DNA of 64,000 nt from Sanguibacter keddieii DSM 10542 (lineage in GTDB: Bacteria > Actinomycetota > Actinomycetes > Actinomycetales > Cellulomonadaceae): the NCBI RefSeq assembly GCF_000024925.1, contig NC_013521.1, positions 1,736,001 to 1,800,000 on the forward strand, in the 5' to 3' direction. Both the position numbers and the translations under genes were made by a program. Position 1 is the stretch's first letter, and each line of letters opens with the position of its first letter. Below are positions 42,283-57,818 of this stretch, piece by piece. The notes under the pieces were generated by a model. The model was not told where the DNA came from and searched no databases. It saw nothing but the letters and a program-made list of their open reading frames with translations.

Positions 42283-42471
42283 ACCAGTATGTAACCACCT
42301 CGGGGCCAGATCATTCCCCTCAGGATCGGGTGGTTCGCTCCCCGCGTATTCGTCCGGGCCCGGGAGGTCGTCGTCCCGGCAACGCCACGTGACGCCAGCG
42401 GGAGCACCGGCGCGGCTGCGGCAGGTCGGCGACGCGCTGCCTGCGCTACCGGTCGTGTCAGCGTCACCTAC

Positions 42472-42477
42472 TAGGCT
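42472..42477 (+). promoter_or_regulatory. -10 hexamer of topoisomerase subunit B gene (leaderless)
   Basis: TAGGCT, 7 nt before the GTG at 42485. Confidence 0.55.
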
Positions 42478-42484
42478 CAGGGTC

Positions 42485-44614
42485 GTGACGACCGCATCCG
42501 CTGAATCCAGCTACACCTCTCGGCACCTCTCCGTCCTCGAAGGGCTCGAGGCGGTGCGCAAGCGACCGGGCATGTACATCGGGTCGACCGACTCGCGCGG
42601 GCTCATGCACTGCCTCTGGGAGATCATCGACAACTCCGTCGACGAGGCGCTCGCCGGGCACTGCACCCGTATCGGCATCGTGCTGCACGCTGACACCTCC
42701 GTGACCGTCACCGACGACGGTCGAGGCATCCCCGTCGACATCGAGTCGAAGACCGGGCTCACCGGCGTCGAGGTCGTCTTCACCAAGCTGCACGCCGGCG
42801 GCAAGTTCGGCGGCGGGTCCTACACGGCGTCGGGTGGTCTCCACGGTGTGGGCGCCTCCGTCGTCAACGCGCTCTCCGCACGCCTGGACGTCGAGGTCGA
42901 CCGGGCGAGCAAGGTCCACAAGATGACCTTCCGGCGGGGCGAGCCCGGGCTGTTCGACGACCCCAAGACCGGGCCGAGCCCCGACTCTGCGTTCACGCCC
43001 TTCGTCAGCAACTCCGAGCTCGCGATCGTCGGCAAGGCCAAGCGGGGGACCACGGGCACCCGGGTCCGCTACTGGGCGGACCGCCAGGTGTTCCCCAAGA
43101 CCGCGGTGTTCGCCTACGACGAGCTGGTGACGCGCGTGCGCCAGACCACGTTCCTCGTCCCGGGCCTGACCATCACGGTGCGCGACGAGCGCGGCCTCGA
43201 GGGGACCCCGGGCGCCGACGGCCCGCACGAGGAGACCTTCGTGCACCACGGCGGGACGGTCGACTTCGTCGAGTTCCTCGCGCCCGACACACCGGTGACC
43301 GCCACGTGGCACCTCACCGGTGAGGGCAGCTTCAAGGAGACCGTCCCGGTCCTCGACGACCGCGGTCACATGGTGGCCCAGGAGGTGTCGCGCGACTGCG
43401 AGGTCGACCTCGCCCTGCGCTGGGGGACCGGCTACGACACCGAGGTCCGGACCTTCGTCAACATCATCTCGACGCCCAAGGGCGGCTCGCACCTCTCCGG
43501 CTTCGAGGCTGGCCTCCTCAAGGTGATGCGCAAGGCCGTCGAGACCAACGCGCGCAAGCTCAAGGTGTCGACCAAGGACAACGCCGAGCGCATCGAGAAG
43601 GACGACGTCCTCGCAGGGCTGACGGCCGTGCTGACGGTGCGCCTGGCCGAGCCGCAGTTCGAGGGGCAGACCAAGGAGGTCCTCGGGACCGCCCCGGTCC
43701 GCGCGATCGTCGCCCGGGTCGTCGAGCAGCAGATCGGCGCCATGCTCACCTCGGCCAAGCGGGACGAGAAGACGCAGGCGGCCCTCCTCATGGACAAGGT
43801 CGTCGCCGAGATGCGCGCGCGCCTGTCCGCCCGCAAGCAGAAGGAGATCTCGCGGCGCAAGAACGCCCTCGAGACGAGCTCGCTGCCCACCAAGCTGGCC
43901 GACTGCCGCAGCGATGACGTCGCGCGCTCCGAGCTGTTCATCGTCGAGGGTGACAGCGCGCTCGGCACCGCGAAGCTCGCGCGGTCCTCCGACTTCCAGG
44001 CGCTGCTGCCGATCCGCGGGAAGATCCTCAACGTGCAGAAGGCCTCGGTGAGCGACATGCTCCGCAACGCCGAGTGCGCGGCCATCATCCAGGTGCTCGG
44101 CGCAGGCTCGGGCCGGTCCTTCGACCTCGAGGCGGCGCGCTACGGCAAGGTGGTCCTCATGACCGACGCCGACGTCGACGGTGCGCACATCCGCACCCTC
44201 CTGCTGACGCTGTTCTTCCGGTACATGCGCCCCCTGGTCGACTCCGGCAGGGTGTACGCGGCCGTCCCGCCGCTGCACCGGGTCGAGGTCATCGGTGCCG
44301 GGTCGCGCAAGAACGAGTACATCTACACGTACTCCGAGGCCGAGCTCGCGGCCGTCCTCAAGAAGCTCGACCGCTCCGGCAAGCGCTACAAGGACGACAT
44401 CCAGCGGTACAAGGGCCTGGGCGAGATGGACGCCGACCAGCTGGCCGAGACCACCATGGACCCGCGCCACCGCACGCTCCGTCGTGTGACGGCGGAGCAC
44501 GCGGAGAACGCCGAGCGCGTCTTCGAGCTGCTCATGGGCTCCGACGTCGCGCCCCGCAAGGACTTCATCGTGGCGGGCGCGAGCGATCTCGACCGGGCTC
44601 GCATCGACGCCTGA
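42485..44614 (+). CDS. parE: Type IIA DNA topoisomerase subunit B (topo IV type)
   Basis: A 709-residue ATPase subunit. The GHKL ATPase motifs are EIIDNSVDEALAGH, TDDGRGIPVD and GGLHGVGASVVNALS. The TOPRIM motifs are VEGDSALGTAKLAR and LMTDADVDGAHIRTLLL, and the C-terminus has YKGLGEMDADQL. It pairs with the A subunit at 59738-62212. I call it ParE, not GyrB, from its position near the primary sigma factor as in Streptomyces and because no gyrA is adjacent; GyrB2-like annotation is equivalent. GTG 42485 is supported by TAGGCT 7 nt upstream. Confidence 0.92.
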   Translation: MTTASAESSYTSRHLSVLEGLEAVRKRPGMYIGSTDSRGLMHCLWEIIDNSVDEALAGHCTRIGIVLHADTSVTVTDDGRGIPVDIESKTGLTGVEVVFTKLHAGGKFGGGSYTASGGLHGVGASVVNALSARLDVEVDRASKVHKMTFRRGEPGLFDDPKTGPSPDSAFTPFVSNSELAIVGKAKRGTTGTRVRYWADRQVFPKTAVFAYDELVTRVRQTTFLVPGLTITVRDERGLEGTPGADGPHEETFVHHGGTVDFVEFLAPDTPVTATWHLTGEGSFKETVPVLDDRGHMVAQEVSRDCEVDLALRWGTGYDTEVRTFVNIISTPKGGSHLSGFEAGLLKVMRKAVETNARKLKVSTKDNAERIEKDDVLAGLTAVLTVRLAEPQFEGQTKEVLGTAPVRAIVARVVEQQIGAMLTSAKRDEKTQAALLMDKVVAEMRARLSARKQKEISRRKNALETSSLPTKLADCRSDDVARSELFIVEGDSALGTAKLARSSDFQALLPIRGKILNVQKASVSDMLRNAECAAIIQVLGAGSGRSFDLEAARYGKVVLMTDADVDGAHIRTLLLTLFFRYMRPLVDSGRVYAAVPPLHRVEVIGAGSRKNEYIYTYSEAELAAVLKKLDRSGKRYKDDIQRYKGLGEMDADQLAETTMDPRHRTLRRVTAEHAENAERVFELLMGSDVAPRKDFIVAGASDLDRARIDA

Positions 44615-44621
44615 GGTCGTG

Positions 44622-44710
44622 TCGACGCACGACGACGCGAGGCTCGACGCACCACGACACACGTCTCGACACACATCTCGACGCACGACGACGCACGTCT
44701 CAACGCGCCG
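44622..44710. repeat. Degenerate tcgacgca-type repeat cluster after parE
   Basis: A 17-bp direct repeat, tcgacgcacgacgacgc, at 44622-44638 and 44678-44694, with several shorter cgtctcgac/tcgacgca pieces between. It starts 8 bp after the parE stop. Confidence 0.7.
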
Positions 44711-44750
44711 ACAGCGCGGCAATAGCCGTGCCTGCGGGCCAGAGTGTCCT

Positions 44751-44756
44751 TAGGCT
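44751..44756 (+). promoter_or_regulatory. -10 hexamer of tandem GNAT gene (leaderless)
   Basis: TAGGCT, 6 nt before the ATG at 44763. Confidence 0.55.
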
Positions 44757-44762
44757 GACCTC

Positions 44763-45818
44763 ATGACAGTCGAGAAGCCCGGCGGTACCCCCGGTGCGAC
44801 ACGTGCCAGCGTCGCGATGCTGCCCGGCGACCTCGGCCTCACCTGGCGCCCCCTCACCACCGCAGACGTCGATGCCCTCTACGAGCTCGTCCTGTCGATG
44901 GAGGTCGCCGACAAGCAGCCGTACCGGACCTCCCACGAGGAGGTCGAGGAGATCTTCGAGGGGGACTGGAAGGACGTCTCGGCCGACACCGTGGCCGGCT
45001 TCGACACCGACGGCGTCCTGCGTGCCTACGCCTGCCTCGAGGCCCGGCCCGGTGACGAGACCACCCAGCGCGTCTTCGTCATGGGCGGCGTGCACCCGCT
45101 GTCCCGCGGTGCGGGCGTCGGCCGTGCGCTGGTCGCCTGGATGACACGGCGCGCCAAGGACATCCTCGAGGCCTCGGACAAGCAGGTGCCCGGGCGCATT
45201 GCCGCCTACCTCGAGGACACCTCGCCCGACCACTGGCACCTCTACGAGGCTGCAGGCTTCCAGGCGAACCGCTTCTACTCCAACCTCCGGCGCGACCTCC
45301 GGGAGCCGGTGCGCCACCCTGAGCTCGAGCCCGGCCTGCGGATCGTGCCCTGGACCGAGGAGCTCGACGACGAGGTACGCCTCGCCCACAACGACGCCTT
45401 CCGCGACCACTGGGGCAGCGAGCCCGCGACCCCCGAGTCCTGGGCGCAGGGGCGGTCGATGTTCGCACCCGGCTGGAGCTTCGTCGCGCTCGACGAGAGC
45501 GAGGGGATGCCCACGGTGGCCGCCTACCTGCTCTCGGGACGGTACGAGCAGGACTGGCCCATCGCGGGGTACTCGAGCGGCTACATCGAGACGCTCGGGG
45601 TCCGGCGCCAGCACCGCGGGCGCAAGCTCGCCGTCGCGCTGCTCGGTGCGGCGATGGAGGCCTACAAGGAGTCCGGGATGGAGTTCGCCGAGCTCGACGT
45701 CGACACCGACAACCCGTCGGGGGCCTTCGGCCTGTACTCCACCCTCGGTTTCACCAAGGCGCAGGGGTCGCGGATGTACTCGATCGAGATCGACCGCGTC
45801 GGCGTCCCGCTCGCCTGA
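44763..45818 (+). CDS. Tandem GNAT-domain acetyltransferase
   Basis: A 351-residue protein with two GNAT folds. The first (about 25-190) has the acetyl-CoA loop in SRGAGVGRALVAWM and HWHLYEAAGF. The second (about 192-345) has YIETLGVRRQHRGRKLAVAL with the QxxGxG/A-type loop, then LDVDTDNPSGAFGLYSTLGF. Two-domain GNATs include mycothiol synthase MshD, but typical MshD signatures were not recognised, so I keep the general call. The C-terminal domain looks the more intact catalytic unit. TAGGCT 6 nt upstream of ATG indicates a leaderless mRNA. Confidence 0.85.
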   Translation: MTVEKPGGTPGATRASVAMLPGDLGLTWRPLTTADVDALYELVLSMEVADKQPYRTSHEEVEEIFEGDWKDVSADTVAGFDTDGVLRAYACLEARPGDETTQRVFVMGGVHPLSRGAGVGRALVAWMTRRAKDILEASDKQVPGRIAAYLEDTSPDHWHLYEAAGFQANRFYSNLRRDLREPVRHPELEPGLRIVPWTEELDDEVRLAHNDAFRDHWGSEPATPESWAQGRSMFAPGWSFVALDESEGMPTVAAYLLSGRYEQDWPIAGYSSGYIETLGVRRQHRGRKLAVALLGAAMEAYKESGMEFAELDVDTDNPSGAFGLYSTLGFTKAQGSRMYSIEIDRVGVPLA

Positions 45819-45957: not shown

Positions 45958-47022
45958 GTGAACCGTCGCCCCCACCTGCTGCTCGCCACCTCCGTGACAC
46001 TGGCTCTCGGGCTGCTCGCTGGCTGCTCCTCGGACGACGGCGACACCACCGCGACCTCTGCGCCTGCCACGACGGACGCGACGACCGACGCGCCCTCCGG
46101 GGAGACGAGCGCCCCGGCGGCCGGCGACGGCGATCCCGCGGCGACGGCTGCGGCGACGTGGCTGCAGTCGCAGGCGGCGTCCGGCACGGTCTTCCAGACG
46201 GAGTTCGACGGTGTCGCGTACGACGACTACGGCCTGACCGGCGACGTCGTGCTCGCGCTGCTGGCAGCCGACCAGGACGACGCGGCGCAGCAGTACGCGA
46301 CCGCGCTGACCACGGACGAGGCCGTCGCCGCCTATGTCGGCGACGGGACCACGGCGCAGTACGCGGGCGCGACCGGCAAGCTGCTCGCCGTCGTCGACGC
46401 GGCCGACCTGCCGACCACCAGCATCGGCGGACGCGACCTCGTCGCCGAGCTGCTCGCTCTCCAGACGGACGAGGGCCGGTTCTCCGACCTCGGCGCCGAC
46501 GACTACTCGCAGACCATCTCGCAGTCGTGGGCCGTCGCTGCGCTGGCCACCCAGGACGCCGCACCGCAGGCGGCCGTCGACTACCTCGCGGCGCAGCAGT
46601 GCGAGGGGTCGGGCTTCCCCGCCCAGCTGTCGAGCACCGCGCCCGCCGACTGCACGCCCGACGTGGACGCGACCGCCTTCGCGGTGTCCGCCCTCGTCGT
46701 CGCGGGGACCGACGACGACGCGCCGGTCGTCGTGCAGGCCCTCGCCTGGCTCGACTCGGTCGGTGCCACGGACGACGCCGGTACCTCGTGGGCCTCGGCC
46801 GACAGCGACGGGCCGAGCATCAACAGCACCGCGGTGGCCGTCTCCGCGCTCGAGGACGGCGACGCCGACGCGAGCGCCGCGATCTCATGGCTCGTGGCCC
46901 AGCAGGTCACGGAGGGCGACGACGCCGGAGCGTTCCTCCTCGCGGACGAGCCGGACGTGCGCACCACCGCCCAGGCCGCCGTCGCCCTCGCGGGCGAGGG
47001 CCTCGACGACCTGCTCGGCTAG
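45958..47022 (+). CDS. Lipoprotein with alpha/alpha-toroid repeats, ECF-linked
   Basis: A 354-residue predicted lipoprotein (lipobox LLAGC, Cys23). After an acidic Thr/Ser linker come five repeats, near 61-105, 158-199, 203-250, 259-301 and 306-346. Each has a WLxxQ- or YLAAQ-type helix, a Gly/Phe turn and a T(A/I)xAVxAL-type helix. This is the pattern of terpene-cyclase-like and transcobalamin/intrinsic-factor N-terminal folds. Cys215 and Cys232 may pair. The catalytic Asp-rich motif of cyclases is not seen, so ligand capture is more likely than catalysis. AGAGGA lies about 6 nt before GTG 45958. It leads an operon with ECF transporter genes. Confidence 0.82.
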   Translation: MNRRPHLLLATSVTLALGLLAGCSSDDGDTTATSAPATTDATTDAPSGETSAPAAGDGDPAATAAATWLQSQAASGTVFQTEFDGVAYDDYGLTGDVVLALLAADQDDAAQQYATALTTDEAVAAYVGDGTTAQYAGATGKLLAVVDAADLPTTSIGGRDLVAELLALQTDEGRFSDLGADDYSQTISQSWAVAALATQDAAPQAAVDYLAAQQCEGSGFPAQLSSTAPADCTPDVDATAFAVSALVVAGTDDDAPVVVQALAWLDSVGATDDAGTSWASADSDGPSINSTAVAVSALEDGDADASAAISWLVAQQVTEGDDAGAFLLADEPDVRTTAQAAVALAGEGLDDLLG

Positions 47023-47031
47023 CCCGGACCG

Positions 47032-47808
47032 GTGGACGTGCTCGCCCTCGCGGCCGCGGTCGGCACGGCTCTCCTGGTGAGCGCCGCAGCGCCGGCGACG
47101 CCCGGGGCCGTCCCGACCCCGTGCGACGGCGTGGCCGTGGTCGTCGACGGCGGTGCGCTGGACGCAGGTGCGCTCGACGGCGGTGCCCCAGGCAGTGTCT
47201 CGCCCGGCGTGCTGAGTGCTCTCGGCTGCGCGGACGTCGACGTCTCGGTCACCGCCCACGACGCCGCGACGGTGGCCGGGGTCGAGCTGGAGGGCACGCA
47301 GCAGTGGGGTGCGGCGTTCGTGTGCCGCGTGGACGGCCGCCCGGCGGTCGACGAGGGGCTGCGGCGCGCCGACGGGAGCGTCGGTACGGAGCCGTGCCTC
47401 CGTACCCCGTCACAGGGGGCGTACTGGGCGCTGTGGACCTCCTCCGGGGGATCGGCGTGGGTCTATGCGGACCAGGGAGCGACGACGCTGGAGGTCGGCC
47501 CAGGCGACGCGGTCGGTCTCGTCTTCGTGACCTCTGACAGGCCCGAGCCGCCGCGTGTCGCGCCTGCCGAGTCGCTCGCCGGCCTTGCCCCGACGGGCTG
47601 GAGGGCCGACGGCGCGTCGACGGCCACCGGTACGGTCCACGGCGAGGCATCGGAGCCCGTCGATGGGGCGACTGGTGGGACCGACGCTGACGGCCCCGGT
47701 GGCCCCGGCGGCCCCGGCGGCCCGGGTGGGGTGGCGCTCGTCGGTCTCGGTCTGGCGGCCGCCCTGCTCGCCCTCGCCGTCCTGCGGTCACGGGCGCGAC
47801 GACTGTGA
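47032..47808 (+). CDS. Cys-rich secreted, membrane-anchored protein, ECF-linked
   Basis: A 258-residue protein with a signal peptide (about 3-25) and an extracellular domain with four Cys (31, 66, 98, 122). An aromatic block YWALWTSSGGSAW (131-143) leads to a beta-rich end (VYADQGATTLEVGPGDAVGL). A flexible GPGG repeat (221-233), one membrane helix (234-250) and a basic tail follow. The aromatic block resembles the C-terminal domain found with bacterial transcobalamin-like (DUF4430-type) proteins; that is inference from memory of the pattern. GTG 47032 comes 9 bp after the lipoprotein stop. Its stop overlaps the next start (GTGA). Confidence 0.72.
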   Translation: MDVLALAAAVGTALLVSAAAPATPGAVPTPCDGVAVVVDGGALDAGALDGGAPGSVSPGVLSALGCADVDVSVTAHDAATVAGVELEGTQQWGAAFVCRVDGRPAVDEGLRRADGSVGTEPCLRTPSQGAYWALWTSSGGSAWVYADQGATTLEVGPGDAVGLVFVTSDRPEPPRVAPAESLAGLAPTGWRADGASTATGTVHGEASEPVDGATGGTDADGPGGPGGPGGPGGVALVGLGLAAALLALAVLRSRARRL

Positions 47809-48911
47809 CCGGCGCTGGTCAGGTCCACCCGGTCGCCTGGTGGGTGTGGGGACTGTGCGTCGCGGCCGCTGCCACGACCACCACCCACCCGGTGGTCCTC
47901 GCGGTCCTGGGGAGCGCGCTGCTCGCCGTCGTGGCGTCGTGCGCCGACCCGGCCCGACGGCGCTCGACCTTCCGCACCTACCTGTGGGTCGCCGCCTGGA
48001 CGGTCGCGGTCCGTCTGGCGTTCCGGGTGGTCTTCCCGACGGGCTCGGGGCAGGGTGTCCTCACCCTGCCCGAGCTGAGCGTGGGACCGGTCGTGCTCTT
48101 CGGGGTCGTGAGCCGAGAGGCTCTGCTCAGCGGTCTGACGGGTGGGCTCCAGCTGGCCGTCGTCATCCTGGCGGTCGGGGCCGCCCACACCCTCGCCGAC
48201 GCCCTGGGGCTCCTGCGGCACGCTCCGTCCTCGCTCGCCGGGATCACGACGGCCCTGGTGGTCGCGGTCTCGGTGCTGCCGGCCCTCGGGCGCGCGGTCC
48301 TCGACGTCCGTCGGGCGGCCCGCCTGCGGGGTCGGCGCCCGGGCCTGCGCCGGACGGTCGTGCCGGTCCTCGAGGCGACGATGGAGCGCTCTCTCACGCT
48401 CGCGGCGGCGATGGAGTCCCGCGGGTACGGGGCGACCCCGGCCGCCGACCAGCCGCTGGTCGCGTCGGCGCGCCCTCGGCTGGTCCAGCCGCTCGCGTTG
48501 CTCGGCGCGGTGGCGGCGGTCGCCCTCGCGACCTACGCGCTCTTCGACGCGTCCTGGCCCGGCTGGGGCGCGCCCGTGCTCGCGGGCCTGGCGGTGCTGC
48601 TCTGCGTCGTCGCCCTGAGGACCGGGACGACGCTGCGCCGGACCGTCTACCGTGCAGAGCGGTGGACACCACGGTCGGTGGTGGTCGCCGCCTCCGGGGC
48701 CGGCAGCCTCCTGCTGCTCGCGACGGCCGTGTCGCCGCGTGTCGCGCACCCCGGGCCCGCCCTGGTGCCCGACCTCTCCGTGACGGCCCTCGTGGCCGCG
48801 CTGCTCGTCGCGGTCCCGCTCGTGGCAGCAGGTGCGGTGGGAGCACGAGCCGACGGAGGACAGCGGGCCCGCGGGACGGACCACGACGAGCCCGCGGAGG
48901 CCCACGCATGA
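47805..48911 (+). CDS. ECF transporter T component (EcfT/CbiQ-like)
   Basis: A 368-residue membrane protein that links the substrate-binding S component to the ATPases. It has about seven or eight hydrophobic helices. The two short coupling motifs are in the cytoplasmic helices: ARLRG (172-176) and ESRGYG (204-209), the A-R-G pattern typical of EcfT. GTG 47805 overlaps the preceding stop, and its own stop overlaps the ATPase start (ATGA). Confidence 0.88.
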   Translation: MTGAGQVHPVAWWVWGLCVAAAATTTTHPVVLAVLGSALLAVVASCADPARRRSTFRTYLWVAAWTVAVRLAFRVVFPTGSGQGVLTLPELSVGPVVLFGVVSREALLSGLTGGLQLAVVILAVGAAHTLADALGLLRHAPSSLAGITTALVVAVSVLPALGRAVLDVRRAARLRGRRPGLRRTVVPVLEATMERSLTLAAAMESRGYGATPAADQPLVASARPRLVQPLALLGAVAAVALATYALFDASWPGWGAPVLAGLAVLLCVVALRTGTTLRRTVYRAERWTPRSVVVAASGAGSLLLLATAVSPRVAHPGPALVPDLSVTALVAALLVAVPLVAAGAVGARADGGQRARGTDHDEPAEAHA

Positions 48912-50551
48912 TCACCTTCGACGACGTCACCCTCGTGCACGACGACGGCCGGGTCGTCCTCGACCACGTGACCACCTCGGTCCGGGCGGGTGAGCTCACG
49001 CTGGTCGCGGGCGGCACCGGCTCCGGCAAGTCGACGCTGCTGGCCATGGTCGACGGGCTCGTGCCGCACTTCTCGCCCGGGCGCATGACCGGCGAGGTCA
49101 CGGTCGACGGGCGCTCGACCCGCCTGGTCCGGCCGCGCGACCTCGCCGACGTCGTCGGGTACGTCGCCCAGAACCCCGCGCACGGGTTCGTGACGTCGCA
49201 GGTCGAGTCCGAGCTCGCCTTCTCGATGGAGCAGCGCGGGGTGTCGCCGGCAGCCATGCGGCGCCGCGTGGAGGAGACCCTCGACCTCGTCGGTCTCGCC
49301 GAGCTGCGCGACCGTCCGCTGCGCTCGCTCTCCCTCGGCCAGCAGCAGCGCGTCGCCATCGGCGCGGTCCTCACCGCGACCCCTCAGGTCCTCGTGCTCG
49401 ACGAGCCGACCTCGGCCCTCGACCCGGTCGGGGCGGAGGAGGTGCTGGCCATCGTCCGTCGGCTCGTCGAGGACCTCGGTCTCACGGTGGTGCTCGCCGA
49501 GCACCGTCTCGAGCGGGTCCTGCACGCCGCGGACCGTGTCCTCTACCTGCCGGGCGACGGATCGGTCCGCTCCGGCGGCGCCACCGACCTGCTGCGCGGG
49601 ACCTCCAGCGCCCCGCCCATCCTGCGCCTCGCCGACGCCCTCGGCTGGGACCCGGCACCGCTCACGGTCCGCGCGGCACGCCCCTTCGCCCGCGAGCTGG
49701 TGCGCGTGACGGCGGAGCCAGTCGCCGCCGGGCCCTCCGGCCACGTCTCCGGTCCGGTCCGATCACCAGCCCCGAAGTCGCCGCCTTCTCCGCAGCCCCG
49801 CCTCTCGGCCCGCCGCCTGGACGTCTCCCACGGCGACGTCCAGGCCGTGCGCCGTGCCTCGCTCGACCTGGCGCAGGGCGAGGTGGTCGCCCTCATGGGC
49901 CGCAACGGCTCGGGCAAGTCCTCCCTGCTGTGGGCGCTCCAGGGCAGCGGGCCACGGGAGCGGGGCGACGTCCGCGTCGACGGGACCGATCCGGCCCGGA
50001 TGGGGGCACGGCGAGCCCGCGAGCTCGTCGCCCTCGTCCCGCAGGACGTGTCCGACCTGTTCTTCTGCGAGACCGTCGACGACGAGTGCCGTACGGCCGA
50101 CGCCGACGCCGGGGCCCCGGAGGGCACGACGCGGACGCTCCTCGGCGCCATGGTCGAGGGCGTCGAGGGCGGGACCCACCCCCGAGACCTCTCCGAGGGC
50201 CAGCGGCTCGCCCTCGCCCTGGCCGTCGTCCTCGCCGTGCCTGCGCAGGTCCTCCTGCTCGACGAGCCGACCCGCGGTCTCGACTACGCCGCCAAGGGGC
50301 GGCTCGTGGAGACCCTGCACCGCATGGCCGCGGACGGCACCGCCGTGCTCGTCGCCACGCACGACGTCGAGCTCGCGGCCGACCTCGCCGACCGGGTCGT
50401 CCTCATGGCCCAGGGCGAGGTGGTCGCGGACGGCCCGGCCCGCGAGATGCTCACCGCGTCGACCGGCTTCGCGCCCCAGGTGGCCAAGGTCTTCGCGCCT
50501 CGCCCCTGGGTCCGGCTGTCGGACGTCCCCGGGCTCGAGGAGCGATCGTGA
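48908..50551 (+). CDS. ECF transporter fused double ATPase (A-A')
   Basis: A 547-residue protein carrying two complete ABC ATPase domains, so the energising pair is made as one chain. Domain 1: Walker A GGTGSGKST, signature LSLGQQQRVAIG, Walker B VLVLDEPTSALD, His switch LAEHRLERV. Domain 2: GRNGSGKSS, LSEGQRLALALA, VLLLDEPTRGLD, VATHDVELA. A Pro/Ser-rich linker (around residues 275-295) joins them. All motifs look functional. The ATG overlaps the EcfT stop, and the stop overlaps the S-component GTG. Confidence 0.93.
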   Translation: MITFDDVTLVHDDGRVVLDHVTTSVRAGELTLVAGGTGSGKSTLLAMVDGLVPHFSPGRMTGEVTVDGRSTRLVRPRDLADVVGYVAQNPAHGFVTSQVESELAFSMEQRGVSPAAMRRRVEETLDLVGLAELRDRPLRSLSLGQQQRVAIGAVLTATPQVLVLDEPTSALDPVGAEEVLAIVRRLVEDLGLTVVLAEHRLERVLHAADRVLYLPGDGSVRSGGATDLLRGTSSAPPILRLADALGWDPAPLTVRAARPFARELVRVTAEPVAAGPSGHVSGPVRSPAPKSPPSPQPRLSARRLDVSHGDVQAVRRASLDLAQGEVVALMGRNGSGKSSLLWALQGSGPRERGDVRVDGTDPARMGARRARELVALVPQDVSDLFFCETVDDECRTADADAGAPEGTTRTLLGAMVEGVEGGTHPRDLSEGQRLALALAVVLAVPAQVLLLDEPTRGLDYAAKGRLVETLHRMAADGTAVLVATHDVELAADLADRVVLMAQGEVVADGPAREMLTASTGFAPQVAKVFAPRPWVRLSDVPGLEERS

Positions 50552-51399
50552 CCCGCAGCGGGGCGACGCACGGACGCGTCGGCGCGGACCCGCTGGTCCA
50601 CCCCGGCGCAGGCCCGCTGGTGGCGCGCTGGGCCTCCGGCGCGCTGCTCGTCGTGACGAGCCTGCTCGGCCTGGCGATGTTCTCCTGGCCTCTCGTGGCC
50701 AGCGTCCTGCCGAGGTCCTCCGAGCAGGGTGCCCCGTGGCTGCTCGTCGTGCTGCTGCCGGTCCTCCTGGTCCTGCTGCTGGTCCAGCTGACCGGTGGAG
50801 AGCTCGACCCCAGGACCCTCGCGCTGCTCGGCGTGCTGTCGGCGGTGAACGCCGCCCTGCGCCTGCTCAGCGCCGGGACCGGGGGCATCGAGCTGGTCTT
50901 CTTCCTGCTGGTCCTCTCGGGCTACGTCCTCGGCCCGACCTTCGGGTTCCTGCTCGGGACGGTGTCGCTGGCCGCGTCGGCGCTGGTGACCGCCGGCGTC
51001 GGCCCCTGGCTGCCCTTCCAGATGATGGCCGCCGGGTGGATCGGGCTCGGCGCGGGTCTGCTCGGACGTGCGCTCGCCGGCAGGGTCCGGCCCCGGGGGT
51101 GGGCGGAGATCGGCGCGCTCGCGGTCTACGCGGCACTGGTCGCCTATCTCTTCGGCGCCCTGATGAACCTGTGGTTCTGGCCCTTCGCGATCGGCGGCGA
51201 CACCTCGGTGTCGTACGTCCCCGGCGGGGACCTCGGCGAGAACCTGCGGCGCTTCGCCGTCTTCACGCTCACGACGTCGACCCCGACGTGGGACACGGTG
51301 CGGGCCGTCACCAACGTCGTCGCCGTGCTCCTGCTCGGGCGCCCCGTACTCGGGACGCTGCGCCGCGCGCAGCGCCGCGGTGTGCTCGCGCGTAGCTGA
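50548..51399 (+). CDS. ECF transporter S component (vitamin-binding)
   Basis: A 283-residue membrane protein with about six helices, the substrate-specific subunit. Family blocks are LGVLSAVNAALRLL, GTGGIELVFFLLVLSGYVLG, FGFLLGTVSLAASALVTAG and GPWLPFQMMAAGWIG. The substrate is not proven; I suggest cobalamin from the operon context (see findings), though another vitamin is possible. GTG 50548 overlaps the ATPase stop (GTGA). It is the last gene of the five-gene operon; a convergent TetR gene ends 22 bp away. Confidence 0.85.
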   Translation: MTRSGATHGRVGADPLVHPGAGPLVARWASGALLVVTSLLGLAMFSWPLVASVLPRSSEQGAPWLLVVLLPVLLVLLLVQLTGGELDPRTLALLGVLSAVNAALRLLSAGTGGIELVFFLLVLSGYVLGPTFGFLLGTVSLAASALVTAGVGPWLPFQMMAAGWIGLGAGLLGRALAGRVRPRGWAEIGALAVYAALVAYLFGALMNLWFWPFAIGGDTSVSYVPGGDLGENLRRFAVFTLTTSTPTWDTVRAVTNVVAVLLLGRPVLGTLRRAQRRGVLARS

Positions 51400-51421: not shown

Positions 51422-51961
51422 TCAGGTGAGCAGGTCGAGGATCCGGTCGACGTTGGCGATCGCGCCCTCCTCCGTCAGGACGCCGAGCAGCAGGTCAGAC
51501 CCGGTGCCGTAGACGGCTGAGAGCAGCAGCGCGGCGTCAGGCTCACCGCCGGGCAGGTCGACGCTGAAGATGTCGACCAGCCGCTGGTAGCGAGTGCGGA
51601 ACTCCTCGGCGAGGGTCGGGTCGTCGGTGGCCCCCCGCTCGAAGGCTGTCACGACCCGGGTCTCCCGCGTGCGCTCGTCGTCGAGCGGGAGCAGCTCGAG
51701 CAGCAGGGCGCGCAGCCGGGGTGTGCCGCCTGCGGGGTGCGCGACGCTCGCGGCCTCGAGGCGCTCGGCCAGGCGCCCGACCTGGTGGTCGACGGCGGCG
51801 ACGAGCAAGCCGTGCCGGTTGCCGAAGTGGTGCTGGATGGCGCCGGTGGTGACCCCGGCGGCCTGTGCGACCTCGCGCAGCGGCATCGCCGGGGGGTGCG
51901 GTGTACCGAGGATCGTCACCGCTGCGGCGACGAGCGCAGCGCGCGCCTGGTCGTCTGACAT
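51422..51961 (-). CDS. TetR-family transcriptional regulator
   Basis: A 179-residue repressor with an N-terminal helix-turn-helix (MPLREVAQAAGVTTGAIQHH, then FGNRHGLL) and a variable ligand-binding C-terminus. GGAGGG lies 7 nt before ATG 51961. It is divergent from a DUF418 membrane-protein gene, and an 18-bp palindrome sits in the 93-bp gap at the DUF418 promoter (52026-52043). It probably represses that gene and may control itself. The inducer is unknown. Confidence 0.9.
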   Translation of the reverse strand: MSDDQARAALVAAAVTILGTPHPPAMPLREVAQAAGVTTGAIQHHFGNRHGLLVAAVDHQVGRLAERLEAASVAHPAGGTPRLRALLLELLPLDDERTRETRVVTAFERGATDDPTLAEEFRTRYQRLVDIFSVDLPGGEPDAALLLSAVYGTGSDLLLGVLTEEGAIANVDRILDLLT

Positions 51962-52025
51962 CCTCTGTCCCTCCGTCGTGCCGTCATGCCGTCGTGGCGT
52001 CGGGGGAGACTCTACCGACGCACCC

Positions 52026-52043
52026 ACATAACACTTGTAATGT
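52026..52043. promoter_or_regulatory. Candidate TetR operator
   Basis: ACATAACACTTGTAATGT, arms ACATnACA / TGTnATGT around a 2-bp centre. It overlaps the DUF418 promoter, ending on the first base of its -10 hexamer, and lies 65 bp from the tetR start codon. Confidence 0.65.
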
Positions 52044-52048
52044 AGCGT
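52043..52048 (+). promoter_or_regulatory. -10 hexamer of DUF418 gene (leaderless)
   Basis: TAGCGT, 6 nt before the ATG at 52055 and directly adjoining the operator-like palindrome. Confidence 0.55.
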
Positions 52049-52054
52049 GGTGTC

Positions 52055-53299
52055 ATGGCAACCACCGCACAGCCCGCACGCCCACCAGCAGCAGGCCGCG
52101 TCCTGGCTCCCGACCTGGCCCGGGGCCTCATGCTGCTCCTCATCGCCCTGGCGAACGTGCCCTGGCACACCGCCGGCTCCGGCTCCTCGGGCCGGACCAC
52201 CTACGACCCGGACGGCAGCCTCCCGGACCGCGTCTGGCAGGCCGTCGCGACCGCCACGGTCGACGGCCGCAGCTACCCGCTCTTCGCCTTCCTCTTCGGC
52301 TACGGCATCTGGCAGCTCTACTCCCGCCAGGTCCGGTCGGGGACCCCACCACGCGAGGCCCACCGGCTGCTGCGCCGCCGCCACACCTGGATGCTGGTGT
52401 TCGGCGCGGTCCACGCCGCACTCCTGTGGGGCGGCGACATCCTCGGCGCCTACGGGCTCGTCGGACTGCTCGTCTGCTGGCTCCTGCTCGACCGTCGTGA
52501 CCGGACCCTCGCCGTCTGGGCGGGCACCCTCGGCGGCCTGCTCGTGGTGGCAGCGACCGTGACAGTGGTCGCCGGGGTCCTCGTCGGCGCCCCCGGGGGA
52601 CCAGGCGACCCCGCCGACCTGCCGGACCCGGCCGCGGCCGAGGGCTACGCCGCGTCTGTCGCCCTCCGGTCGGGCATGTGGCTCGTCGTCACCGTCGGCC
52701 AAGGGGTCCTCACGCTCGCCGTCCCCGCGGCTGTGCTCCTTGGGATCCTCGCCGCCCGTCACGGCGTCCTCGAGCACCCTGACGCGCACCGCAGGCTGCT
52801 CCTGGCCACGGCCGCGACGGGCATCCCGCTCGCCTGGGGTGCCGGTGCCCTCGCCGTCGCCCAGGCCGCAGGGGCCCTGCCCGGCATCGCCCCCTGGACC
52901 TTCGACGTGCTGGTCGTCGCGACCGGTCTCGCCGGCGGGCTGGGGTACGCCGCAGCCTTCGCCCTCGTCGCGGCCGCCTGGCAGCGCCGAGGCCTGGGCC
53001 GTGCTGGTGACGCCCTCGTGGCTGTCGGCAGGCGGTCCATGACCTGCTACCTGCTGCAGTCGCTGCTCTTCGCCCCGGTCCTGGCCGCCTGGGGCCTCGG
53101 CCTCGGGACGGGCCTCACCGACTGGCAGGTCGCCCTCTACGCCGTCGCCGTCTGGCTCGTCACCGTCGCGGTCGCCGTCTGGCTCGACCGGACGGGGCGC
53201 CGCGGGCCCTTCGAGCGGCTCCTGCGCCACCTGGCGTACCCGCGGCCGACGCTCAGCCCAGAGACCACCCGCGACGCCTCGACAACCAGGACCGGCTAG
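52055..53299 (+). CDS. DUF418 family membrane protein
   Basis: A 414-residue polytopic membrane protein with about ten helices. The family opening RVLAPDLARGLMLLLIALAN and the internal YPLFAFLFGYGIWQLYSRQ are typical, as is the DUF418 C-terminal half with RRSMTCYLLQSLLFA. The function of the family is not settled; acyl transfer or export has been suggested for relatives. It is likely repressed by the divergent TetR protein. Its last 47 bp overlap the end of the convergent phosphotransferase gene. Confidence 0.87.
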   Translation: MATTAQPARPPAAGRVLAPDLARGLMLLLIALANVPWHTAGSGSSGRTTYDPDGSLPDRVWQAVATATVDGRSYPLFAFLFGYGIWQLYSRQVRSGTPPREAHRLLRRRHTWMLVFGAVHAALLWGGDILGAYGLVGLLVCWLLLDRRDRTLAVWAGTLGGLLVVAATVTVVAGVLVGAPGGPGDPADLPDPAAAEGYAASVALRSGMWLVVTVGQGVLTLAVPAAVLLGILAARHGVLEHPDAHRRLLLATAATGIPLAWGAGALAVAQAAGALPGIAPWTFDVLVVATGLAGGLGYAAAFALVAAAWQRRGLGRAGDALVAVGRRSMTCYLLQSLLFAPVLAAWGLGLGTGLTDWQVALYAVAVWLVTVAVAVWLDRTGRRGPFERLLRHLAYPRPTLSPETTRDASTTRTG

Positions 53300-54212
53300 C
53301 GTCCCGGTACCAGGCCTGGTGGGCGCGCAGGTACGGCGAGGTCTCGACGTGGTCCTGCGCGGCCGCCCAGGTGAGGTACCCGAGCAGCAACGCCAGCACG
53401 CCGTCCACGAGGTCCGGGTCGACGTCCCGGGTGAGCGGCTCCCGGGCGAGCAGCGCGTCCGCGTCGACGCCGTCGCCGTGCGCCTGGACGAGCAGCGAGA
53501 CCATGTCGAACCAGGCAGGACCCGCCGCGACGAAGTTCCAGTCGACGGCCACCGCGCCGCTGTCCGTCAGGAGCACGTTGTCGTCGCGGACGTCCGTGTG
53601 GACGACGGTGGTCGCGGGGGAGGCAAGCATCCGCTCGGCGAGCCCGACGCAGGTGTCGCGCCAGGGCGGCTCGAGCCTGCGGACCAGGTCGAGCTCCGTG
53701 GCGAGCTCGTCGGCGAGCAGCGGGACGACCAGCCCCGGGGGCGGGGGCGTGAGCAGCCGGGCGTTCTCGGTGAGCATCGCCAGCACGAGGTCGAGCTCGT
53801 CCTCCTGCCAGGGCCGCCGCGGGTGCTGCCCCTCGACGTCCTCCATCACAGCGACGAACCACGGGCCGTGCTCGAGGGTCCAGAGCGCTCGCGGGGCGTG
53901 CACACCGGCGGGCAGGCCCGCCGTGACCTCGCACTCACGCCGGTAGGCGTCGACCACCCAGGACGCGGTCTCGGACGACGCGGCCTTGACGAACACCCGG
54001 CGCCCGTCGGCGAGGAGCAGGCGCGACGCCAGACCCGGCGTGAAGCCGGAGTCCTGCGACCGGGCCTCGACCACCAGGGCGCCGAGCCGGGACTCGACGG
54101 CCTCGCGCACGCCGACCGGCAGCGAGGACCACCGGGGCCGCAGCGCGGTCGCCCCGGTCGGCACCGCGCCCCCGCGCACGGGAGGCGCGGACGCCGTGTC
54201 GCCGCTGCTCAT
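53253..54212 (-). CDS. Aminoglycoside/choline-kinase-like phosphotransferase
   Basis: A 319-residue APH-fold protein. The catalytic loop is VVHTDVRDDNVLL (HxDxxxxN) and the metal-binding Asp is in VDWNFVAAG. The N-terminal ATP-binding lobe has RRVFVKAA with the likely Lys. Substrate is unknown: APH-fold enzymes act on antibiotics, choline, fructosamine and others, and nothing here points to drug resistance. ATG 54212 stands 1 bp after a 17-bp tandem repeat array that fills the gap to metH. The C-terminus overlaps the convergent DUF418 gene by 47 bp. Confidence 0.85.
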   Translation of the reverse strand: MSSGDTASAPPVRGGAVPTGATALRPRWSSLPVGVREAVESRLGALVVEARSQDSGFTPGLASRLLLADGRRVFVKAASSETASWVVDAYRRECEVTAGLPAGVHAPRALWTLEHGPWFVAVMEDVEGQHPRRPWQEDELDLVLAMLTENARLLTPPPPGLVVPLLADELATELDLVRRLEPPWRDTCVGLAERMLASPATTVVHTDVRDDNVLLTDSGAVAVDWNFVAAGPAWFDMVSLLVQAHGDGVDADALLAREPLTRDVDPDLVDGVLALLLGYLTWAAAQDHVETSPYLRAHQAWYRDASRSWLSRRRGWSLG

Positions 54213-54213
54213 G

Positions 54214-54298
54214 GCTCCGTCACAGACAACGCTCCGTCACAGACATCGCCCCGTGACAGACATCGCCCCGTCACACTCATCGCCCCGTCACACCGAGA
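54214..54298. repeat. 17-bp tandem repeat, five units, between metH and the phosphotransferase
   Basis: Five 17-bp units starting at 54214, 54231, 54248, 54265 and 54282, with consensus gccccgtcacagacatc. They fill the intergenic gap. The last unit contains the metH stop codon (minus strand), and the first ends next to the phosphotransferase start. Confidence 0.88.
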
Positions 54299-57200
54299 AG
54301 TACTTCGCGGCCGGGTGGTGGAACACGATCGCGTCGGTCGACTGCTCAGGGTGCAGCTGGAGCTCGTCGGAGAGCACGACGCCGACGCGCTCGGCGCGCA
54401 GCAGCTCCATCACCTTGCGGCGGTCCTCCATGTCGGGGCATGCCGGGTAGCCGAGGGAGAACCGGGCGCCGCGGTAGTCGACCTTGAACATGCCGTCGAG
54501 GTCTGCGGGGTCCTCGGCGGCGAAGCCGAGCTCTTCGCGGACGCGGGAGTGCCAGAACTCCGCGAGGGACTCGGTGAGCTGCACCGAGAGGCCGTGCAGC
54601 TCCATGTACTCGCGGTACCGGTTCTCGGCGAACAGCCGGGCGGTGTGCGGGTCGACGGAGGCGCCCACCGTCACCAGCTGGAAGGCGACGACGTCGACCT
54701 CGCCTGAGTCCTTCGGCCGGACGAAGTCGGCGAGGCACAGGTGCCGGTCGCGGCGCTGCCGGGGGAAGGTGAAGCGCATGCGCTCCGTGCCCGGCTCGCC
54801 GCCCGAGCCGCCGTCCGGGCCCTCGTGGTGCAGGATCACCATGTCGTCGCCGTCGGCCACGGCGGGGAAGTAGCCGTAGACCACCGACGGGTCGAACATG
54901 TCCTCGGTCTTGATGCGGTCGAGCCAGTCGCGCAGCCGCGGGCGCCCCTCGACCTCGACGAGCTCTTCGTAGCTGGCGGAGTCGTCGGCACGGGAGGGCT
55001 TGAGGCCCCACTGGCCCATGAAGGTCGCGCGCTCGTCGAGGAACGCGGCGTAGTCGGCGAGCTGGATGCCCTTGACGATGCGCGACCCCCAGAACGGCGG
55101 CGTCGGCACGGGGTTGTCGGAGGCGATGTCCGAGCGCGGGGGGAGGTCCTCGTCGGCGGTCTGCGTGACGGTGACCGTCGCGTGGCGGCGCTTCTTGAGC
55201 GCGGGCAGCCCGACGGCGGCGACGTCCTCCCCTCGGGCGACCCGGACGAGCGGCTCCATGAGGCGCAGCCCCTCGAAGGCGTCGCGGGCGTACCGGACCT
55301 GGCCGTCGTAGACGGCGTCGAGGTCGTCCTCGACGTAGGTGCGGGTCAGCGCCGCGCCGCCGAGCAGCACGGGGTACTTCTGCGCCAGGCCGCGCGCGTT
55401 GAGCTCTTCGAGGTTCTCGCGCATGACGACGGTCGACTTCACGAGCAGCCCGCTCATGCCGATGACGTCGGCGTGGTGCTCCTCGGCGGCCTCGATCATC
55501 GCGGCGATGGTCTGCTTGATGCCGATGTTGACGACCGTGTAGCCGTTGTTGGTGAGGATGATGTCGACGAGGTTCTTGCCGATGTCGTGCACGTCGCCGC
55601 GCACCGTCGCGAGCACGATGGTGCCCTTGCCGGCCTCGTCGGTCTTCTCCATGTGCGGCTCGAGGTACGCCACGGCCGTCTTCATGGCCTCGGCGGACTG
55701 CAGCACGAAGGGCAGCTGCATCTCGCCCTTCCCGAACAGCTCTCCGACCACCTTCATGCCCTCGAGCAGGTGGTCGTTGATGATCGCGAGGGCCGTCATG
55801 CCCTCGCCGAGCGCGAGGTCGAGGTCGGTGTCGAGGCCCTTGAGGTCGCCGTCGAGGATGCGCCGCTCGAGCCGCTCCCCGAGGGGGAGCGCGGCGAGCT
55901 CGGCGGCCCGCTGGTCCTTGAGCGCCGCGGTGTCGACGCCGGCGAAGAGGTCGAGGAGGCGTGCGAGCGGGTCGAAGGTCATCGCGCCGTCGGCGTCGTA
56001 CTCGCGGCGGTCCCACACGAGGTCGAGGGCCGCCTTGCGCTGCTCGTCGGGGATCTTGGCGAGGGGCAGGATCTTCGCGGCGTGCACGATCGCCGAGTCG
56101 AGCCCGGCCTGGACCGCCTCGTGCAGGAACACCGAGTTGAGCACGACGCGCGCGGCGGGGTTGAGCCCGAAGGACACGTTCGAGACACCGAGGGTCGTGT
56201 GCACCCCTGGGTACTTCGCCTTGAGCGCACGGATCGCCTCGATGGTCTCGATGGCGTCGCGTCGGGTCTCCTCCTGGCCGGTGGCGATCGGGAAGGTCAG
56301 GGTGTCGACGATGATGTCGGCGACGTCCATGCCCCACCGGCCGGTGAGGTCGTCGACGAGCCGGCTCGCGATCGCGAGCTTGGTCTTGGCGGTGCGTGCC
56401 TGGCCCTCCTCGTCGATGGTGAGGGCGATGACGGCCGCGCCGTGCTCCTTGACCAGCGGCATGATGCGCCCGTAGCGCGAGGTCTCGCCGTCGCCGTCCT
56501 CGAAGTTCACCGAGTTGACCACGCCGCGTCCGCCGACGAGCTCGAGGCCGGCCTGGATGACGGGCGGCTCGGTCGAGTCGATGACGAGGGGCAGCGTCGA
56601 GGCCGACGCGAGGCGCGACACCACGGAGCGCACGTCGGCCACGCCGTCGCGGCCCACGTAGTCCACGCACACGTCGAGCAGGTGCGCGCCGTCGCGGGTC
56701 TGCGCGCGGGCGATCTGCACGCACTCGTCCCAGTCCTCGGCGAGCATCGCCTCGCGGAAGGCCTTGGAGCCGTTGGCGTTGGTGCGCTCGCCGATGGCCA
56801 GGAACGAGGCGTCCTGGTCGAAGTCCACGTGCGTGTAGAGGCTCGCGACGCCCTTCTCGGGCTCGGGGGTGCGCTCGACGACGGGCGCCCCACCCACGGC
56901 GTCGACCACGGCCCGCAGGTGCTCGGGCGTCGTGCCGCAGCACCCGCCGACGAGGCCGAGGCCGAACTCGCGGACGAACTGCTGGTGCGCCACCGCGAGC
57001 TCGGCCGGGCTCAGCGGGTAGTGCGCGCCGTTCGCGCCCAGCACCGGGAGCCCGGCGTTGGGCATGCAGGTGACCGGGACGGCCGAGTGCTTGGCGAGGT
57101 GGCGCAGGTGCTCGCTCATCTCCGCGGGACCCGTCGCGCAGTTGAGGCCGATCGAGTCGATGCCGAGCGCGGCGAGCGTGGTGAGCGCCGCACCGATCTC

Positions 57201-57818
57201 GGAGCCCATGAGCATGGTGCCCGTCGCCTCGACGGTCACCTGGACGAAGATCGGCACCTCGACGCCGGACTCGGCCATGGCCTTCTTCGACCCGTTGACC
57301 GCCGCCTTCGTCTGGAGGAGGTCCTGGCTGGTCTCGACGAGGATCGCGTCGGCACCGCCCGCGACGAGACCGGCGGCCTGCTGCGCGAAGGTGTCGCGCA
57401 GGTGCGCGTAGCTCGTGTGCCCGAGGCTCGGCAGCTTGGTGCCCGGCCCCATCGAGCCGAGGACCCAGCGTGGCTTGTCGGGCGTGGCGTGCTTGTCGGC
57501 GCTGCGCCGCGCGACCCGTGCACCCGCCTCGGCGAGCTCGAAGATGCGGTCGTCGATCCCGTAGTCGCCGAGGTTCGACCAGTTGGCCCCGAAGGTGTTG
57601 GTCTCCACGCAGTCGACGCCGACCGCGAAGTACGCGTCGTGGACCGACTCGACGACGTCGGGCCGGGTGACGTTGAGGATCTCGTTGCAGCCCTCGAGCC
57701 CCTGGAAGTCGTCGAGGCTGAGGTCGGCCGCCTGCAGCATTGTGCCCATCGCGCCGTCGGCGACGACGACCCGGGTGGCGATGGCGGACTTCAGGGCAGC
57801 AGCGCGCGCGGTGAGCAT
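54288..57818 (-). CDS. metH: Cobalamin-dependent methionine synthase
   Basis: A 1176-residue four-module enzyme that methylates homocysteine using methyltetrahydrofolate and B12. The homocysteine module has VVADGAMGTMLQ and zinc Cys in GLNCATGP and GGCCGTTPEH. The pterin module has AIGERTNANGSKAF. The B12 module has DVHDIGKNLVDIILTNNGYT with the Co-binding His. The C-terminal module is the AdoMet-dependent reactivation domain. Length matches the family. TAGACT 6 nt before the ATG implies a leaderless mRNA, leaving no room for a riboswitch. Confidence 0.97.
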   Translation of the reverse strand: MLTARAAALKSAIATRVVVADGAMGTMLQAADLSLDDFQGLEGCNEILNVTRPDVVESVHDAYFAVGVDCVETNTFGANWSNLGDYGIDDRIFELAEAGARVARRSADKHATPDKPRWVLGSMGPGTKLPSLGHTSYAHLRDTFAQQAAGLVAGGADAILVETSQDLLQTKAAVNGSKKAMAESGVEVPIFVQVTVEATGTMLMGSEIGAALTTLAALGIDSIGLNCATGPAEMSEHLRHLAKHSAVPVTCMPNAGLPVLGANGAHYPLSPAELAVAHQQFVREFGLGLVGGCCGTTPEHLRAVVDAVGGAPVVERTPEPEKGVASLYTHVDFDQDASFLAIGERTNANGSKAFREAMLAEDWDECVQIARAQTRDGAHLLDVCVDYVGRDGVADVRSVVSRLASASTLPLVIDSTEPPVIQAGLELVGGRGVVNSVNFEDGDGETSRYGRIMPLVKEHGAAVIALTIDEEGQARTAKTKLAIASRLVDDLTGRWGMDVADIIVDTLTFPIATGQEETRRDAIETIEAIRALKAKYPGVHTTLGVSNVSFGLNPAARVVLNSVFLHEAVQAGLDSAIVHAAKILPLAKIPDEQRKAALDLVWDRREYDADGAMTFDPLARLLDLFAGVDTAALKDQRAAELAALPLGERLERRILDGDLKGLDTDLDLALGEGMTALAIINDHLLEGMKVVGELFGKGEMQLPFVLQSAEAMKTAVAYLEPHMEKTDEAGKGTIVLATVRGDVHDIGKNLVDIILTNNGYTVVNIGIKQTIAAMIEAAEEHHADVIGMSGLLVKSTVVMRENLEELNARGLAQKYPVLLGGAALTRTYVEDDLDAVYDGQVRYARDAFEGLRLMEPLVRVARGEDVAAVGLPALKKRRHATVTVTQTADEDLPPRSDIASDNPVPTPPFWGSRIVKGIQLADYAAFLDERATFMGQWGLKPSRADDSASYEELVEVEGRPRLRDWLDRIKTEDMFDPSVVYGYFPAVADGDDMVILHHEGPDGGSGGEPGTERMRFTFPRQRRDRHLCLADFVRPKDSGEVDVVAFQLVTVGASVDPHTARLFAENRYREYMELHGLSVQLTESLAEFWHSRVREELGFAAEDPADLDGMFKVDYRGARFSLGYPACPDMEDRRKVMELLRAERVGVVLSDELQLHPEQSTDAIVFHHPAAKYFSV

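Follow-up and report, generated by a model that had tools for sequence, protein, structure and literature searches.

The five genes at positions 45958 to 51399 of a 64-kb stretch of the Sanguibacter keddieii DSM 10542 genome (contig NC_013521.1; this whole stretch is called the window) likely form a dedicated importer of the energy-coupling factor (ECF) type that takes up cobalamin or a close corrinoid, the lipoprotein LP and the exported protein B serving to capture the ligand outside the cell. LP, B, EcfT, the fused EcfA-A' and EcfS follow one another with one 9-bp gap, between LP and B, and three 4-bp overlaps, each of the three ECF genes sharing 4 bp with the gene before it; the open reading frame (ORF) coordinates bear out the chain described in an initial annotation of this DNA. 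The parts of the operon, and the metH gene beyond it, are:

45958-47022, + strand: LP, lipoprotein, predicted alpha/alpha toroid (alpha half); ORF, AlphaFold2 (AF2), Foldseek and profiles
46024-46026, + strand: Cys23 codon of the LP lipobox LLAG-C; by eye
47032-47808, + strand: B, exported four-Cys protein with C-terminal anchor; ORF, AF2, Foldseek and profile-profile comparison
about 47104-47560, + strand: predicted transcobalamin-like beta domain of B; AF2 and Foldseek
about 47677-47730, + strand: Gly/Pro stalk of B; by eye
about 47731-47784, + strand: hydrophobic C-terminal helix of B; by eye
47805-48911, + strand: EcfT, transmembrane component; CbiQ PF02361, 26.6 bits against a cut-off of 25
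48908-50551, + strand: EcfA-EcfA', fused double ATPase; two ABC_tran PF00005 stretches
50548-51399, + strand: EcfS, membrane substrate-binding component, predicted cobalamin/corrinoid specificity; PF12822 and PF07155 above cut-off
54288-57818, - strand: MetH, cobalamin-dependent methionine synthase, outside the operon; PF02965

EcfT, two EcfA domains and EcfS, all recognised by Pfam above cut-off as the initial annotation had named them, lie in a single operon, which is the arrangement of a dedicated ECF module. The double ATPase also passes the cut-off of the NCBIfam model TIGR01166 (cbiO) and stays below those of TIGR04520 and TIGR04521. Inspection by eye confirmed the four Cys, Gly/Pro stalk and C-terminal membrane anchor of B, and added a hydrophobic N-terminus with no basic start and a basic tail behind the C-terminal helix.

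Relatives were collected from two samples; L-numbers denote their loci and G-numbers sampled genomes. Among 149 genomes of the order, 44 had an EcfS relative, of which the 41 strong ones were counted as EcfS-positive and the weak matches of G053, G121 and G126 were placed among the 108 EcfS-negative genomes; regions were taken for 40 places in the order. Across the actinobacteria, the named loci are the best 80 of at least 520 relatives, themselves from at least 596 pattern matches in one genome scan. The gene set is conserved in these relatives, so the five-gene arrangement is not a chance one.

The beta half carries the closest likeness to an animal cobalamin carrier. LP and B of the window were folded separately, and residues 25-203 of B (47104-47640; 63-row alignment) gave an AF2 model with a pLDDT of 82.3 and a pTM of 0.79. 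When this model was compared with the PDB by Foldseek, ranks 1-16 were taken by 14 transcobalamin chains and chains A and B of 3u7z, a Ruminococcus gnavus protein, and the isolated transcobalamin beta domain (5np4, 5no0) was among them. The match probabilities were 0.57-0.98 for ranks 1-16 and 0.07 at rank 17, with nothing higher beyond rank 16 among the 50 of 99 matches listed. A profile built from 17 plus-strand DUF4430 segments, out of 30 loci of the phylum, aligned with the B profile at an hhalign probability of 79.6 (E 1.5e-5), as against 0.1 for each of two unrelated control pairs, and the predicted beta-grasp fold, which corresponds to that of the beta domain of transcobalamin, is the fold of the DUF4430 clade. 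PDB sequence searches with B profiles returned chance-level matches only (HLA chains at E >= 0.053, a nanobody at E 5). The four Cys of B are conserved in its family. As modelled, the beta half is specifically transcobalamin-like, which is what the initial annotation had supposed. Of 246 genomes sampled from the phylum, 42 encode classical DUF4430 proteins (loci L151-L180).

For LP, residues 56-354 (46123-47019; 62 rows) gave an AF2 model with a pLDDT of 90.9 and a pTM of 0.90, an alpha/alpha toroid with 14 listed helices; the lipobox and the toroid class thus agree with the earlier description, and its five repeats do not. Foldseek matched the model best with squalene-hopene and type II terpene cyclases (E 4e-6), with prenyltransferases and complement/macroglobulin proteins further down, and the LP family profile found squalene-hopene cyclase among PDB sequences at E 7.1e-37. 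Toroid families of Pfam matched only under cut-off (PF00432, E 0.0054). PF01122, the eukaryotic cobalamin-binding family of the transcobalamin and intrinsic factor toroid, had no match in the window LP and weak ones in 17 of the 62 LP members (best E 0.005). On these models the alpha half is of the right fold class, with no special closeness to transcobalamin. The view of the two surface proteins as halves of one binder therefore holds for the kinds of fold and is backed by fusions in relatives (see below), with the qualification that LP lies nearest to terpene cyclases.

With iterated profiles, B was located upstream of EcfT in the window and in every one of the 36 loci L032-L067, which come from 35 genomes; in the window and in 10 of these loci, LP precedes the B of the operon. 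Genome-wide, B occurred in 40 of 41 EcfS-positive genomes versus 3 of 108 others, and LP in 13 of 41 versus 3 of 108, so that B is a near-constant partner and LP an optional one; the expected co-occurrence of all five genes was found for B and only in part for LP. All three sampled EcfS-positive genomes of the window's family have LP. Two metagenome-assembled loci, L077 and L097, have LP and B joined in a single open frame in the order of transcobalamin; at the junction nothing hydrophobic is seen by eye in L077, and two hydrophobic stretches in L097. The reverse fusion, B then LP, occurs in L057, L075, L082 and L106. In L059, L062, L064, L066 and L067 the two parts of the B profile come in reverse order, the latter part first, and these five proteins match the NCBIfam model SCO2322_fam above cut-off over its full length, whereas the ordinary B proteins scanned cover only about its first third. 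SCO2322 proteins are therefore best read, from these sequence matches, as circular permutants of B. The window B reaches 22.9 bits against SCO2322_fam (cut-off 85 bits) and LP reaches 61.2 bits (E 7.8e-17) against SCO2321_fam (cut-off 300 bits); some relatives likewise match below cut-off, and both families are named without a function.

Other arrangements were seen. An LP gene stands downstream of ecfS in L103 (near 9000), L119 (near 9045), L080, L083, L101, L113 and L121. In L050 (8103-10049), L044 (8052-10004) and L053 (8029-10065), EcfT and two ATPase domains are apparently one chain of about 650-680 residues, and these fusions sit in the riboswitch-less branch described below, near Microbacteriaceae. 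No B was found near EcfT in some named loci, e.g. L107 and L149; in L107, L116 and L149 a riboswitch precedes ecfT and no upstream B was found; the surface partner may have been lost, may have escaped recognition or may lie elsewhere. A plasmid nucleotide search gave two partial Streptomyces matches, which were not used.

Cobalamin riboswitches in relatives bear on the substrate. Rfam RF00174 (E <= 0.001) was found on the same strand directly ahead of LP or B in 21 order loci, 8 of them above cut-off. From 25 copies first found by Rfam a model, R1, was built, and a locus was counted as positive when R1 matched on the same strand 40-700 nt upstream of the LP, B or EcfT domain; for those 25 sequences the count is circular, since they built the model. 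R1 placed a riboswitch upstream in 85 of 104 usable loci, that is 23 of 37 order loci (the window being one of the 37) and 62 of the 67 named loci that were usable, with 13 of the 80 named loci set aside as truncated or without EcfT/EcfS, and L031 and L068-L070 outside the count. Of 110 R1 matches, 109 were examined (one of 16.9 bits was left out), and 94 of these lie 40-700 nt 5' of an LP, B or EcfT domain. L100, L105, L111, L120, L122 and L130 have two riboswitches each, LP-led units having their own copy, and in L103 and L119 the LP gene downstream of EcfS is preceded by its own riboswitch; LP itself is therefore tied to cobalamin. B-only operons are also riboswitch-led. The EcfS of Amycolatopsis azurea, itself riboswitch-led, shares 62% identity with that of the window. 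Scanned with Rfam, the window and 25 named loci gave no listed riboswitch of any class but cobalamin.

In the window, metH lies 2.9 kb from ecfS, in keeping with the 3 kb given earlier. Of the 14 genomes of the order that lack a riboswitch, 12 show the same linkage (<=3 kb), the window's among them; the exceptions, G102 and G140, have metH on another contig, and G140 was counted as riboswitch-less with a contig that starts just upstream of B. None of 26 other genomes examined showed the linkage; in 18 of these, metH and ecfS are on separate contigs. MetH is present in 40 of 41 EcfS-positive versus 21 of 108 EcfS-negative genomes (Fisher 1e-19, kinship not corrected); the system is thus not confined to B12-independent genomes, an outcome that would have told against B12 as the substrate. 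CobQ is above cut-off in 12 of the 21 EcfS-negative genomes with MetH. The genome of S. keddieii has no CobQ match, and the neighbouring MetH is the sole protein with the B12-binding domain PF02310 found in it. MetH is thus a likely client of the importer. In L068 (5544-11499), from a 0.8-Mb genome with a distant EcfS (E 1.9e-11), ecfS is preceded by the gene for a B12-dependent ribonucleotide reductase and followed by that for a cobalamin adenosyltransferase; two genes between the reductase and ecfS are ECF-module-like by eye, LP and B were not found, and this locus represents a minimal version of the system. With riboswitches in relatives and metH linkage in its own branch, the EcfS of the window has the genomic context of a cobalamin S component of the CbrT type, and the proposal of B12 as substrate is supported by both and by MetH co-occurrence.

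Beside the operon, the ecfS-metH interval (51422-54212) holds a TetR regulator, a DUF418 membrane protein and an APH-family phosphotransferase. Upstream, a gyrase-B-type gene and a GNAT protein (window 42389-45818) recur in L033:1245-4434 (G102, same family; likeness by eye).

Bacterial transcobalamin-like domains have been known since 2007, when SLBB domains with toroid fusions on either side were described (Burroughs et al., 2007; PMC1796856); they occur in CbiO/CbiQ operons of species usually without B12 synthesis, B12 scavenging was proposed, and the clade was considered an innovation of Gram-positives, of low GC according to the abstract (PMC1796856). The general idea behind the initial annotation was thus already in print for other bacteria. 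SLBB (DUF4430) proteins resemble the present system in their secreted beta domain, toroid fusions and CbiO/CbiQ-like operon genes, and differ in that DUF4430 does not recognise the window B and that actinobacterial B is mostly a separate chain. The available text of PMC1796856 holds no words beginning with riboswitch, permut, circular or Streptomyces. In Lacticaseibacillus rhamnosus, a DUF4430 protein encoded near rtpR was listed, as was an "additional lipoprotein component of putative cobalamin ECF transporter" (PMC9963975).

ECF-CbrT of Lactobacillus delbrueckii is a cobalamin ECF importer (PMC5997447), and the Lactobacillus cluster nrdJ-cbrS-cbrT-pduO resembles L068; unlike the dedicated operon of the window, CbrT uses a shared (group II) ECF module (PMC5997447). 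Searched with the EcfS profile, the PDB gave no chain at E <= 10, so that no kinship with CbrT is detectable among the sequences of solved structures, CbrT itself not having been aligned. In acI actinobacteria, ECF modules behind cobalamin riboswitches were proposed as cobalamin transporters, an assignment made in the same way as here and also in actinobacteria, whereas the available text does not mention surface capture proteins (PMC5301498). The identification of transporters for B12 and its precursors was described as an open problem for many gut genomes (PMC6593275). The available text of PMC4350170, PMC2667541, PMC9600381 and PMC8123684 has nothing on LP/B-type surface proteins, and the accessible open-licence literature on SCO2320-SCO2325 gave nothing beyond unrelated peptide work.

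Within the open-licence literature as a whole, nothing was found on actinobacterial LP/B surface proteins; because of this silence and the 2007 precedent, the actinobacterial branch, with its split chains and circularly permuted form, looks like a new version of a known idea. Some of these operons may be listed in work by Rodionov et al. from 2009.

Transcobalamin's two domains close over one B12. By analogy, LP and B probably pair on one corrinoid and hand it over to EcfS. B, held by its C-terminal helix, would present a transcobalamin-type beta-grasp domain, and LP, a lipid-anchored alpha/alpha toroid, would supply the other half, the two closing over the corrinoid at the outer face of the membrane as the domains of transcobalamin do. 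The corrinoid would then pass to EcfS, EcfT and the fused EcfA-A' would drive uptake at the cost of ATP, and the imported cofactor would feed the MetH encoded nearby; without LP, B would act alone or with another partner. Transcobalamin and intrinsic factor share with the system the alpha/alpha toroid and the beta-grasp domain, and in L077 and L097 also the alpha-then-beta single chain. In the window, by contrast, LP and B are two chains, each anchored at the surface of a bacterium; the four Cys of B are conserved, terpene cyclases lie closer to LP by fold and sequence, and the pair would supply an ECF importer.

Several results weigh against a corrinoid importer with such a two-part capture stage. 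Neither the window nor the genome has a riboswitch: Rfam found none in the window at the gathering cut-off or at E <= 5, R1 gave no match at E <= 0.01 over the 64 kb, and the relatives-built model with filters off reached at best 8.7 bits, inside a coding region and on the opposite strand. The window's EcfS also belongs to a riboswitch-less branch; in a tree of 71 rows (the window, 34 of the 36 loci L032-L067, L054 and L063 being left out, and 36 of the 80 named loci), 15 of 16 riboswitch-less members, the window included, fall into one branch (98/89), L094 being the exception. The Rfam cut-off shows an upstream riboswitch in only 9 of 25 named loci (7/8, 0/9 and 2/9 by scan batch, L097 being in two batches), so the high count rests on R1. 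Searches for LP gave no match in 28 of the 41 EcfS-positive genomes, and transcobalamin is neither among the 50 listed of LP's 614 fold matches nor among the 60 listed of its 61 PDB sequence matches. For B, the Foldseek E-values are weak (0.034 to 0.53, none under 0.001). The window B has no Pfam match, that of PF14478 (DUF4430) included; DUF4430 was matched in 0 of 27 relatives and then in 3 of 63 (best E 0.0012), L103 and L123 reaching 17.1 and 14.0 bits against a cut-off of 23.8. CobQ is above cut-off in 7 of 41 EcfS-positive genomes, the B12-independent MetE is present in the S. keddieii genome, so that import would be useful and not essential for methionine, and EcfS is above cut-off for PF07155, a family named after riboflavin.

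The optional presence of LP would also fit an arrangement in which B alone captures and delivers the corrinoid to the same importer, and LP is an accessory with no joint binding site. This is a serious but lesser possibility; B is found in 40 of 41 EcfS-positive genomes versus 13 of 41 for LP, B-only operons are led by riboswitches, and the L. rhamnosus table names one additional lipoprotein component (PMC9963975). It accords poorly with the six loci in which LP and B are on one chain, L077 having the transcobalamin order and no hydrophobic segment between, and with LP in every sampled EcfS-positive genome of the window's family. The substrate, too, could be a corrinoid precursor or another cobamide (e.g. 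cobinamide) instead of finished cobalamin, since riboswitch and metH context cannot separate these and cobinamide is also taken by ECF-CbrT (PMC5997447). This is rather unlikely: CobQ was not matched in the S. keddieii genome and was not above cut-off in 34 of the 41 EcfS-positive genomes, late salvage genes not having been searched, and early precursors could therefore hardly be put to use.

Readings that dispense with corrinoids altogether fare worse. It is very improbable that LP is a secreted terpene-cyclase-like enzyme with no role in transport, even with squalene-hopene and type II terpene cyclases as its closest folds and sequences. DxDD(T) is the acid motif of type II terpene and squalene cyclases; DxDDT occurs in 0 of 62 LP members (DxD[AGSC]T in 38), and LP genes are led by cobalamin riboswitches and form fusions with B. 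The cyclase candidate was rejected on the missing motif. Import of cobalt (Co2+) is scarcely to be expected, and was rejected on the vitamin-type EcfS and the lack of CobQ in the S. keddieii genome, although EcfT matches the CbiQ "cobalt transport protein", the ATPase passes TIGR01166 cbiO, and cobalamin riboswitches can control cobalt importers as well. The Pfam scan listed no CbiM family, and it is not evident what purpose a beta domain of the transcobalamin type would serve with free cobalt. Another vitamin, such as riboflavin or folate, is just as hard to credit. PF07155 (ECF-type riboflavin transporter) is above cut-off in the window and the folate family TIGR04518 far under it (E 0.58 in the window, 0.00086 in L100), but the riboswitch, metH and nrdJ/pduO context and the co-occurrence of MetH speak for cobalamin, as does the exclusive listing of cobalamin riboswitches by Rfam in the loci scanned. 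No EcfS homologue with a proven other substrate turned up, riboflavin being the name of a family.

A dedicated importer of cobalamin or a close corrinoid with LP and B as its capture stage would offer a possible and testable function for two nameless families, SCO2321 and SCO2322, with relatives in Streptomyces, Amycolatopsis, Micromonospora, Nocardioides, Janibacter, Kytococcus and other hosts. It points to a route of corrinoid capture in actinobacteria that use B12 without synthesising it, and to bacterial, separable counterparts of both halves of an important animal carrier. To our knowledge, ECF importers are generally held to bind their substrate solely via the membrane S component. There is about an even chance that the modular actinobacterial "transcobalamin kit", with its separate chains, both fusion orders and permuted beta half, is a true extracellular substrate-binding stage of an ECF importer; if so, there would be ECF importers that use dedicated surface binding proteins.

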